A stretch of 64,000 bases of DNA, taken from the NCBI GenBank assembly GCA_026706595.1, contig JAPOYL010000009.1, positions 86,687 to 150,686 of the forward strand, in the 5' to 3' direction. A program made the translations under genes and the position numbers. The notes beneath the pieces were generated by a model that was given only the letters and a program-made list of their open reading frames with translations, did no database searches and had not been told where the DNA came from. This document shows positions 44,074 through 46,856 of this stretch, in pieces (positions within the stretch are counted from its first letter, which is position 1; each line of letters starts with the position of its first letter). The DNA is from Gammaproteobacteria bacterium. Lineage in GTDB: Bacteria > Pseudomonadota > Gammaproteobacteria > UBA4575.

Positions 44074-45273
44074 ATGAAAAAGATTGTAATTGCACCGGAC
44101 TCGTTTAAAGGCAACCTCACTTCGCTGGAGGTTGCCGTAAGCATCGAGAAGGGTATCCGACGAGTCTTGCCCAATGTGACATGCGTAAAAATACCCATGG
44201 CAGATGGAGGCGAAGGGACCGTACAGTCACTGATCGATGCAGCAGGAGGAAAGCTGGTGAGAAAGCGGGTCAAGGGCCCCGCAGGAAAAATTGTAACAGC
44301 GTGCTACGGCTGGTTACCCGGTAAGAAAACGGCAGTCATTGAAATGGCAGAAGCTTCCGGGTTGCCCCTGGTCGACGGACACACCAAGAACCCGCTCAAA
44401 ACCACAACGTACGGCACCGGCCAATTGATACTGGATGCGCTCGATCGCGGCGCTGAAAAAATCATTCTCGGCATTGGAGGATCCGCGACCAACGATGGAG
44501 GGGTAGGTATGGCTCAGGCATTGGGTGTGCGGTTCATGAATGCCCGCGGCAGAGGAATAAAAGAGTCTGGTTCTGGGGGAATGCTGGCGAAAATTCAAAC
44601 CATCGATGCCACTGGCCTTGATGCCCGGGTCAGCAAGGTAAAAATCCTTGTGGCCTGTGATGTAAAAAATCCCCTGCATGGGAAACAAGGCGCTGCGCAT
44701 GTGTTCGGCCCGCAAAAAGGCGCCACCCCGAAGATGGTTGCAGTGCTGGATGCAAACCTCAAGCATCTGGGTCGCTTGATCAAGCGTGACCTTAAAAAAG
44801 ATGTAGCCCGCATGCCAGGCGCGGGAGCTGCCGGCGGTCTGGGTGCTGGATTGGTCGCCTTTGCAGGGGCCACTCTCAAGAGTGGTGTCGACATTGTGCT
44901 AAGGACAACCGAGCTAGAGAAATATGTGAAGGGCGCCGACCTGGTTATCACCGGGGAAGGCAAGGTGGATTTCCAGACTGCATTCGGGAAGACCCCCTCC
45001 GGTGTCGCAAGGGCAGCCAAAAAACATCGGGTGCCGGTGGTGGCTATCGGCGGAGCGTTATCCGATGACGCACATAACGTGTTTGCACATGGAATTGACG
45101 GGATCGCCAGTGCGGCTGCCAAGGACATGACACTGGATGAAGCATTGCGGGACTCAAGACCACATCTGGAAAATGTCGCAGAGCGTGTCATTCGCATGAT
45201 TCTTATCGGCAAGAAAATGGCAGAGAAAAAACACAGGATGAAGGCCCGGTCCGGGCCAAGAAAGTCACGGTAG
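44074..45273 (+). CDS. Glycerate kinase, type I
   Basis: Phosphorylates glycerate, forming 2-phosphoglycerate in this family. The 399-residue protein has the family N-terminus IVIAPDSFKGNLTS, MADGGEGT, GIGGSATNDGG and ITGEGKVDFQT motifs. The C-terminus ends in a basic tail of about 20 residues (KKMAEKKHRMKARS...) beyond the usual end. In an autotroph it can return glycerate from 2-phosphoglycolate salvage to central metabolism. The 228 bases upstream hold no gene. Its end overlaps the end of the convergent gene by nine bases. Confidence 0.92.
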   Translation: MKKIVIAPDSFKGNLTSLEVAVSIEKGIRRVLPNVTCVKIPMADGGEGTVQSLIDAAGGKLVRKRVKGPAGKIVTACYGWLPGKKTAVIEMAEASGLPLVDGHTKNPLKTTTYGTGQLILDALDRGAEKIILGIGGSATNDGGVGMAQALGVRFMNARGRGIKESGSGGMLAKIQTIDATGLDARVSKVKILVACDVKNPLHGKQGAAHVFGPQKGATPKMVAVLDANLKHLGRLIKRDLKKDVARMPGAGAAGGLGAGLVAFAGATLKSGVDIVLRTTELEKYVKGADLVITGEGKVDFQTAFGKTPSGVARAAKKHRVPVVAIGGALSDDAHNVFAHGIDGIASAAAKDMTLDEALRDSRPHLENVAERVIRMILIGKKMAEKKHRMKARSGPRKSR

Positions 45274-46071
45274 AACTTCTATCTGGATGCCTCCTTCCGT
45301 CAGTTCCCAGATTTCATCCATGTCGCTTTGACTTGCCGCGACACTTCCTTTCGTTGCGCCCCATAACCCGGTGATCTGCCACGCCCAGCCCATCCTGTTC
45401 GGGTAGGACTGGATTACAAAGTGTACCTGCGAGCTGGTTGCAGCTTTTGAGGCGGGAGCCTGATCCGGTGCCCCCGAATATGTGGCGTGCATGGACTTGC
45501 GGCCCTTGCTGTCTTCATCCCTGGCACCCAGCAGGTAGGTTCCCTGTGGGATGCCTCCAACACCCGGATGCTGGTGGCTTGCCCCCAGCCTGACGTGATA
45601 GCTGCGGTACGGTTTGCCACTTTTGATCAGGTAGAACTTGCCCTCGCCTTTTTTGAGAAATGCGGAGTCTGCTGCCAACAGGTTGACCAGACCGGAAGTT
45701 TCCTTGCCCATGGCATACGTTCTCACTCCCCATTGCTCTCCGTGGGCGTTGAAATATTTCCAGATACCGTCCTTGTCGCCATCGGCATACTGGCCTGCAA
45801 TGTGCATATAGCCCCCGTCCCATGCCTGCCACTCACCGTGCTTGATTCCGTCCCTCTCGCAGAAAACTGCAATCCCAAGCTTGCTCCAGACTTCGCGTTT
45901 TTCCACTGCACCTTCGATGCACTGGAGGTTGACCTTGGCCACAGCACTCCGGGTCTTGCTGTACTCATGCTCCATCATCCATCCGATCCACAAGGGGCTT
46001 GTCAGCAAGAGCAGCAAGCCAAGGGTAATGAACATGACGATCGCGGGCTCGGAAAGTTTTTTAAGTTTCAT
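45265..46071 (-). CDS. Degenerate L,D-transpeptidase-like protein with MORN-like segment
   Basis: A 268-residue envelope protein. One transmembrane or signal-anchor helix (residues 10-32) is followed by a MORN-like stretch (KHGEWQAWDGGYMH, then GDKDGIWKYFNAHGEQ) and a C-terminal domain that reads like an L,D-transpeptidase: GIPQGTYLLGARD, FVIQSYPN, then WQITGLWG and KGSVAASQSDMDEIWEL. The catalytic His position of the IHG motif is Thr234, and the catalytic Cys of the GC(V/I)A motif is Ser243. It should lack transpeptidase activity and may bind peptidoglycan. Divergent from the DUF2905 gene. Confidence 0.75.
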   Translation of the reverse strand: MKLKKLSEPAIVMFITLGLLLLLTSPLWIGWMMEHEYSKTRSAVAKVNLQCIEGAVEKREVWSKLGIAVFCERDGIKHGEWQAWDGGYMHIAGQYADGDKDGIWKYFNAHGEQWGVRTYAMGKETSGLVNLLAADSAFLKKGEGKFYLIKSGKPYRSYHVRLGASHQHPGVGGIPQGTYLLGARDEDSKGRKSMHATYSGAPDQAPASKAATSSQVHFVIQSYPNRMGWAWQITGLWGATKGSVAASQSDMDEIWELTEGGIQIEVLP

Positions 46072-46183: not shown

Positions 46184-46384
46184 ATGAACAAAATTCTGGT
46201 TGCTATCGGAATCACTATTTTAATTGTTGGATTGCTTTGGCCTGTAATCAGCAAGGTGCCTTTTGGGAAACTGCCGGGTGATATCGCTATCAAAAAAGAA
46301 GGATTTCACCTGTATTTCCCGATCACCACCATGATTGTAGTCAGTATCGTCGTATCCGCGGTGTTATGGTTTTTTAAAAAGTAG
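46184..46384 (+). CDS. DUF2905 small membrane protein
   Basis: A 66-residue protein with two hydrophobic helices (MNKILVAIGITILIVGLLW and ITTMIVVSIVVSAVLWFF) joined by the conserved loop KLPGDIAIKKEGFHLYFP, the hallmark of the DUF2905 family. It is predicted to be an inner-membrane hairpin. Function of the family is unknown. The start at 46184 removes an upstream extension of 23 residues without similarity. Confidence 0.88.
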   Translation: MNKILVAIGITILIVGLLWPVISKVPFGKLPGDIAIKKEGFHLYFPITTMIVVSIVVSAVLWFFKK

Positions 46385-46430: not shown

Positions 46431-46856
46431 ATGACTTCTGGCAAGACACCCGAGTATATCCTTCTGTCTGTGCTAATCAGCAAGCTGGAAAACAACGATT
46501 ATTATCGTGTTTTTGCCAAATCCTTGGCAAGGACAGCCTGTCCCGCAGGCTCTTTGCCTCCTGACGATGAGCTGGTCAGGGAAATGTTCTATTACTTTAT
46601 TAAAGAGAACGAACTGCCGATCCGCTATGAGGGGTCAGAGGCATCTTTGGATTTTGTCGAATCGGAAATTCAACGCAGGGCTGCTGCAAAAGCCGTTTCC
46701 GACGAGGATCTTGAGCGTACCAGGGAGCTTGAAAAAAAACTTGTCTGGGAAAAGGAGATCAGTATCAGGGTGCAGGACCTGAGGAAACTGTACGCCAACA
46801 AATGCATCGTGTTTCCGAAGTCATTGCTGGCTGAGAAAAATACAAGCAGTGCATGA
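46431..46856 (+). CDS. Hypothetical protein, 141 residues
   Basis: A soluble, charged, helical protein with no signal peptide. A long charged helix is likely at residues 75-120 (RRAAAKAVSDEDLERTRELEKK). It starts 46 bases after the DUF2905 gene and converges with gltD, 27 bases away. I do not recognise a family or function. Confidence 0.65.
   Translation: MTSGKTPEYILLSVLISKLENNDYYRVFAKSLARTACPAGSLPPDDELVREMFYYFIKENELPIRYEGSEASLDFVESEIQRRAAAKAVSDEDLERTRELEKKLVWEKEISIRVQDLRKLYANKCIVFPKSLLAEKNTSSA

Follow-up and report, generated by a model that had tools for sequence, protein, structure and literature searches.

Can a protein that keeps the fold of an L,D-transpeptidase, and has lost the residues that make it an enzyme, still be of use to the cell? 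This question is raised by a gene for a 268-residue protein in the 64,000-nucleotide stretch of DNA that was analysed (the window). An earlier note had described the product as an envelope protein in which a MORN-like stretch precedes an L,D-transpeptidase-like (YkuD) domain with both catalytic residues replaced. The source genome is a draft of 1.56 Mb in 32 contigs with a completeness of 92%. The features of the locus are collected in Table 1.

Table 1. Features at the locus of the 268-residue protein, in window coordinates.
Feature	Position	Strand	Basis or remark
Complete gene, 268 residues: membrane helix, MORN-like domain and degenerate YkuD domain	45265..46071	-	ORF list; full-length orthologs in the four other genomes of the genus
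N-terminal helix, residues 8-45, with a presumed single membrane segment after MKLKK	45937..46050	-	AlphaFold2 model
Cys51	45919..45921	-	Ortholog alignment; invariant in the five orthologs
Probable MORN-type antiparallel beta domain, residues 56-120	45712..45906	-	Models, Foldseek, structure aligner
Cys71	45859..45861	-	Alignment; invariant in the five, also in L023, L033 and L034, which have no YkuD domain
Degenerate YkuD domain, residues 133-268	45268..45675	-	Alignments, AlphaFold2 model, structure comparison
Gln221, at the catalytic His position	45409..45411	-	Alignment with canonical relatives, profile columns
Thr234, in the variable loop ahead of the Cys motif	45370..45372	-	Alignment; His position of the earlier note
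Ser243, at the catalytic Cys position	45343..45345	-	Alignment with canonical relatives, profile columns
Glycerate kinase gene	44074..45273	+	Convergent, shares 9 bases with the 3' end of the 268-residue gene; neighbour in all five genomes
DUF2905 gene	46184..46384	+	Divergent from the 268-residue gene; neighbour in all five genomes

The C-terminal domain and its catalytic positions

The relationship of the C-terminal domain to the L,D-transpeptidases stands on homology and on fold. A protein search of whole genomes gave sequence matches to canonical YkuD relatives with E-values down to 1e-17. The AlphaFold2 model, for which a 38-row alignment was the input, has a mean pLDDT of 80.1 and a pTM of 0.65; pLDDT falls below 50 in residues 1-3, 167-171, 202-214 and 233-236. 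When the model was compared with the PDB using Foldseek, L,D-transpeptidases came out on top (best E 1.1e-5, with a TM-score of about 0.33 over the whole query). A second structure aligner placed residues 134-268 on YkuD (1y7m) with a Z-score of 14.5 and 2.2 Å over 100 residues, and gave a Z-score of 14.2 to LdtMt1 (5e51). In Pfam, the 268-residue protein had no match at E ≤ 1, the YkuD profile PF03734 included, and the other four orthologs match this profile at the same threshold, weakly, the best with 3.6e-5. Of the marks of PF03734 membership, the fold and the homology are present, and the catalytic Cys and the His of the HG motif are absent. Nor was there a match at E ≤ 1 to the DpaA/LdtF/YafK equivalog NF040599, which requires 365 bits and to which a canonical relative (L027) scores 44.6 bits. 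Two other NCBIfam families, lmo0954 (E 0.015) and the LIC20035 adhesin (E 0.023 over residues 80-124), were rejected, as both lie far under the cut-off.

The catalytic pair of YkuD enzymes consists of the His of an HG motif and the Cys of a GC motif. The earlier note had assigned the lost Cys to Ser243, which is correct: in the alignment with canonical relatives, WT-x-GCIA is matched by ATKGSVA (residues 239-245). Its assignment of the lost His to Thr234, on the other hand, was a misalignment and is ruled out by the same comparison, in which canonical MIHG is matched by VIQS (219-222), with Gln221 in place of the His and Ser222 in place of the next Gly. Judged by profile columns, both residues are missing in all five orthologs of the genus, where the His/Cys pair is replaced by Q/S, Q/S, K/S, F/R and L/S. 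The same substitutions recur in part, with Ser for Cys in four of the five and Gln for His in two, but the other replacements differ. The possibility that a different Cys might serve the domain is likewise ruled out, since Cys is found only at positions 51 and 71 in all five orthologs, which leaves the YkuD domain without any.

Outside the fused group, the pair is kept by 107 of 111 relatives; these were part of the listed profile matches, so that rarer dead relatives may be missed. The first set held 70 rows, 24 of which were left out before counting, namely overlapping duplicates of genes already in the set and a sequence from G005 (L053) whose His is visible and whose Cys is cut off by a run of N. 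This left the five orthologs and 41 others, and all 41 distinct non-fused relatives have both residues in the profile columns. Both are also kept by the ten further relatives from a search of the phylum (10/10). A third set consisted of 60 lower-ranked profile matches, and 56 of these showed H-G/A followed by G-C, here by motif reading and not by columns. Of the four exceptions, one gene has a TGA in frame in place of the Cys codon, and the other three are broken remnants, two of them short with the Cys retained and one without an ORF hit. The loss of both residues in five genomes out of five in the genus is beyond chance. It is well supported that the domain is a pseudoenzyme, with activity predicted to be absent from the residues it carries, even though one of the two positions had been misassigned.

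Some of the other YkuD relatives deserve mention in their own right. A canonical YkuD relative in G654, another genome of the phylum (L146:281-832; C7:302780-303331), is interrupted by one in-frame TGA, which falls exactly on the codon of the catalytic Cys, in the context DWTDG-TGA-VAVTN. The same genome has SelB (C60:15978-17867, 412.6 bits) beside tRNA-Sec (C60:15841-15932, 77 bits), both above cut-off; among 14 control genomes, SelB was above cut-off in two and tRNA-Sec in five. The protein is a candidate selenocysteine L,D-transpeptidase, albeit a doubtful one. Against it, none of the five nearest family relatives has a stop in the matched frame, and the Cys codon is TGT or TGC in four of them; folding of the RNA downstream of the TGA is not better than that of shuffled versions (185 of 200 folded at least as well); and 10 other codons lie one step from TGA. 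A plain nonsense change or a read error is possible. In genus g374, three genomes (G444, G640 and G424) contain short C-terminal YkuD remnants with the Cys motif (L170, L171 and L172), which have the appearance of pseudogenes derived from the canonical enzyme, and a fourth, G491, has an intact YkuD copy (L092).

The N-terminal half and the strength of selection

The helix at the N-terminus is strongly conserved, with the segment LLLLTSPLWIGW (residues 20-31) invariant in the five orthologs. The chain that follows it would lie on the periplasmic side, as suggested by the positive N-terminus and the two conserved Cys residues, and Cys51 and Cys71 may be joined in a disulfide.

The MORN-like stretch that the earlier note had placed before the domain is found at that position, and the model gives it a MORN-like sheet, but its identity is likely only, since the scores are modest. 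Modelled alone, the N part (residues 40-130) reached a pLDDT of 90.9 and formed seven strands. Its top Foldseek match was SET7/9 with an E-value of 6.1e-3, no match fell below 0.001, and structures of MORN1 and MORN4 appeared among the matches. Superposition on SET7/9 (1h3i) gave a Z-score of 7.6 over 88 residues, and no Z-score exceeded 7.9, which the tool rates as middling. The sheets of Borrelia OspA and of the TarM type score almost as high as the MORN structures, and for this reason a MORN-type sheet is considered likely, not proven. The Pfam MORN_2 profile (PF07661) had no match in the 268-residue protein; the relatives L023 and L033 match it under cut-off (E 0.0098 and 0.0021). The first of these, from G032 (L023:1396-1770, contig C10), has 125 residues; it is a membrane-MORN protein that shares the two Cys residues and lacks a YkuD domain.

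The two halves of the gene change at different rates. Identity to the orthologs of G003, G002 and G004 amounts to 77, 76 and 76% over the N half and falls to 57, 49 and 43% over the C half. The corresponding dN values are 0.12-0.16 and 0.30-0.58, so that at non-synonymous sites the YkuD half evolves approximately 2.5-3.5 times as fast as the membrane-MORN half. In the same three comparisons, the pN/pS ratio of the C half was 0.36, 0.49 and 0.59, with bootstrap intervals ending at 0.46, 0.63 and 0.76; the synonymous sites are almost saturated, which inflates these ratios and does not lower them. The G000/G001 pair has too few changes in the C half for a selection test, and its interval has no upper bound. 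All five frames are open, with no stop or frameshift. Both halves are under purifying selection, the C half less strictly held. The faster change of the C half could mean decay and not a new role. An intact canonical YkuD protein shared by G001 and G003 served as a control; its two versions are 67% identical, and the halves of the fused gene are 78 and 56% identical in the same pair of genomes. Since an intact YkuD relative also changes fast, the view that the C half is relaxed has to be tempered.

The substrate pocket and possible roles of the protein

How much of the substrate pocket is left was judged from positions that are the same in 12 or all 13 of the canonical relatives compared. There are 46 such positions, 23 of which are retained in the 268-residue protein and nine in all five orthologs (D135, K141, L148, Y158, G177, Y179, A245, E253 and W255). 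These nine are taken from the alignment as the presumable fold core and were not mapped on the model. Near the motifs, the 268-residue protein has Asp171 changed to Val, Thr174 to Ile, Gly215 to Gln, Gly222 to Ser, Asp238 to Gly and Trp239 to Ala. Beside these, H221, C243 and the G-x-K loop, which is deleted here and in G001, P199 is changed as well. The G004 ortholog retains the lysine together with the G-x-K and P-E-G loop. Some features are common to the five orthologs: an ED-x-x-GRK stretch (186-192) is invariant among them, and their invariant residues that depart from the most frequent canonical one include E186, G190, R191, K192, Q232 and G235. In an alignment with 8ikr, we mapped the canonical loop lysine by its K-x-x-Q spacing to Lys83 of E. 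coli DpaA, with Gln86 as the Gln of that spacing.

Taken together, the explanation that we lean towards is an inner-membrane-anchored periplasmic pseudoenzyme that acts as a non-catalytic adaptor. The N-terminal helix would tether the protein to the inner membrane. The MORN-type sheet is the most constrained part and would probably make the main contact; that it changes most slowly suggests that this lead is the main functional surface. The dead YkuD domain, with its fold kept, would have a non-catalytic part, either in docking a partner or as a structural support of the lead. We infer this role, as we do the disulfide and the periplasmic topology of the 268-residue protein.

A less probable reading, which nevertheless has to be taken seriously, is that the function lies entirely in the membrane-MORN half and that the YkuD domain is a vestigial passenger, the relic of a fused gene in the course of being lost. 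The roughly 2.5- to 3.5-fold faster non-synonymous change of the C half, the existence of the 125-residue L023 protein without a YkuD domain, the retention of nine out of 46 conserved positions in all five orthologs, and a Pfam YkuD match that is weak in four of them and absent in the 268-residue protein would all be explained in this way. However, the domain is still full length, in frame and under purifying selection in the three comparisons that could be tested, and the canonical intact pair, as described above, itself shows no greater identity than 67%.

The earlier note had inferred a peptidoglycan-binding protein, in which the dead domain would grip stem peptides and so anchor the protein to the wall or sense it. 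This appears unlikely, and the claim finds no support in the pocket, where positions conserved in 12 or 13 of the 13 canonical relatives are changed. It is true that the YkuD fold is kept, that the G004 ortholog still has its loop, and that a similar speculation has been published for the dead second YkuD domain of LdtPae1, in the available part of that paper (PMC10434034). However, the loop with the equivalent of DpaA Lys83, a residue of loop L1 that contacts mDAP, is deleted in the 268-residue protein and in G001, and further positions that do not vary among the 13 canonical relatives have changed; in E. coli DpaA, the K83A mutant has no activity according to the available text of PMC10653827. 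Because the pocket is largely changed, the Lys83 equivalent included, a stem-peptide grip through the ancestral pocket is unlikely.

The other role inferred in the earlier note, that of a regulator, may apply. By analogy with what EnvC and NlpD do for LytM enzymes, the membrane-tethered dead YkuD domain might bind and control an active enzyme of the L,D-transpeptidase type, an idea to which we give little weight. The source genome encodes two YkuD proteins of other types (contigs C11 and C23), which are above the Pfam cut-off and have motifs that look intact, and these are possible partners of the dead domain. An enzyme of altered chemistry with Ser243 as the nucleophile is highly improbable. 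Ser does stand at the Cys position in four of the five orthologs, but the fifth has Arg, the His position reads Q, Q, K, F and L, and the Gly before Ser243 is retained in two of the five (Gly242, here and in G001) and lost in the other three. Finally, a sequencing error at these codons or a fresh pseudogene, which the draft state of the assemblies might suggest, is excluded by five open frames, shared synteny and a pN/pS below 1 for the C domain in three distant comparisons, the five assemblies agreeing on the loss with replacements that differ and neighbours that are conserved.

Genomic setting, origin and known systems

The gene order is conserved in all five genomes of the genus and runs from glycerate kinase (PF02595, 496 bits) through the gene for the 268-residue type of protein, DUF2905 and a 141-residue ORF to two further ORFs, which we take to be gltD and gltB. 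A 375-residue ORF lies ahead of the glycerate kinase gene in all five, as does a 764-residue ORF in the four assemblies long enough to show it, that of the source genome included. None of the neighbour genes in the five genomes suggests a link to the cell wall. Promoter and terminator signals at the gene were in no excess over shuffled sequences. The 141-residue ORF (46431-46856, + strand) has no significant family match; its relatives occur in nine of the family's 19 genomes, among them all five of the genus. In G014, which does not belong to the genus, a long distance separates the homolog of this ORF from that of GltD.

Of 143 genomes searched with the protein, 24 gave matches, the source genome included. 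Full-length matches were confined to the five genomes of the genus, where the four other proteins are 97, 67, 62 and 58% identical to the 268-residue protein, and the remaining matches covered the C part only, except for one N-part match in G032 (L023). The family, which among the genomes examined equals the whole order, comprises 19 genomes; of the 14 outside the genus, 13 match the YkuD profile (one is partly masked by N) and none does so at full length. A profile of the N domain matched nine of 369 genomes of the class, one of them the source; in the frames inspected, the loci of the eight others encode MORN-type proteins or short ones, and none showed a YkuD part fused to them. A full-length profile matched 95 of 398 genomes of the phylum, with a full-length match in the source genome only; among the phylum matches listed, the others cover the C part, save one N-part match (G290). 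The class and phylum sets are samples, and among the sampled genomes, the membrane-MORN-YkuD fusion is seen only in the source genus.

In a tree, the five dead domains form one clade (support 100/99) on a long stem (1.05). An origin from the canonical copy of their own family was mildly rejected (AU p 0.026 for the own family and 0.018 for the genus copies). The dead domain may stem from another YkuD lineage; the long stem and possible long-branch attraction make its placement unsure. Within the genus, a canonical YkuD copy is found in G001 and G003 only, where it adjoins MFS and ParA-like genes. The copy of G014 also lies near MFS and ParA-like genes, with one ORF between it and the MFS gene. 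In G004 (L134:5943-7333, C18), the MFS and ParA-like neighbours are present with a 352-residue ORF in place of the canonical YkuD. Neither a canonical L,D-transpeptidase nor the MFS gene was found in G000 and G002, which may be due to assembly gaps. As it stands, the dead gene is present in five of the five genomes and the live one in two.

The canonical single-domain YkuD proteins of the GCIA type (L009, L011 and L027) are homologous to the C domain, with 24-36% identity and the same end, EIW..V..GTPIEI. In contrast to the 268-residue protein, they retain both the His and the Cys, lack the membrane-MORN lead and measure some 160-220 residues. They occur in Gammaproteobacteria and other Pseudomonadota. 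The MORN domains of SET7/9, T. brucei MORN1 and MORN4 have an antiparallel strand meander that the N part probably resembles, whereas the 268-residue protein differs from them by its two conserved Cys residues, its membrane anchor and the absence of a Pfam MORN_2 match. The degenerate LytM factors EnvC, NlpD, ActS and DipM are cell-wall enzyme folds that have become non-catalytic regulators; their fold, LytM, is a different one.

In the available parts of the open-access literature, no paper was found that joins YkuD with MORN or L,D-transpeptidase with pseudoenzyme, and no dead L,D-transpeptidase appeared in the available text of PMC12729407. The solved structure closest by sequence to the family profile A3 is that of E. 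coli DpaA/LdtF/YafK (PDB 8IKR, E 1.6e-10), with which the canonical relatives share the lysine of loop L1. According to the available text of PMC10653827, DpaA is an active amidase with Cys143 and Lys83, whereas the 268-residue protein has neither the His, nor the Cys, nor that lysine. The one YkuD domain without a catalytic Cys met in print, as far as the accessible texts go, is the second domain of P. aeruginosa LdtPae1 (QLGKIR), for which peptidoglycan binding was speculated (PMC10434034). A dead YkuD domain thus has a precedent. The occurrence of such a domain, anchored to the membrane, throughout a genus offers a clean natural case for the role of the YkuD fold after catalysis. In LdtPae1, the dead domain stands in tandem with an active YkuD domain, whereas in the 268-residue protein it follows a membrane-MORN lead.
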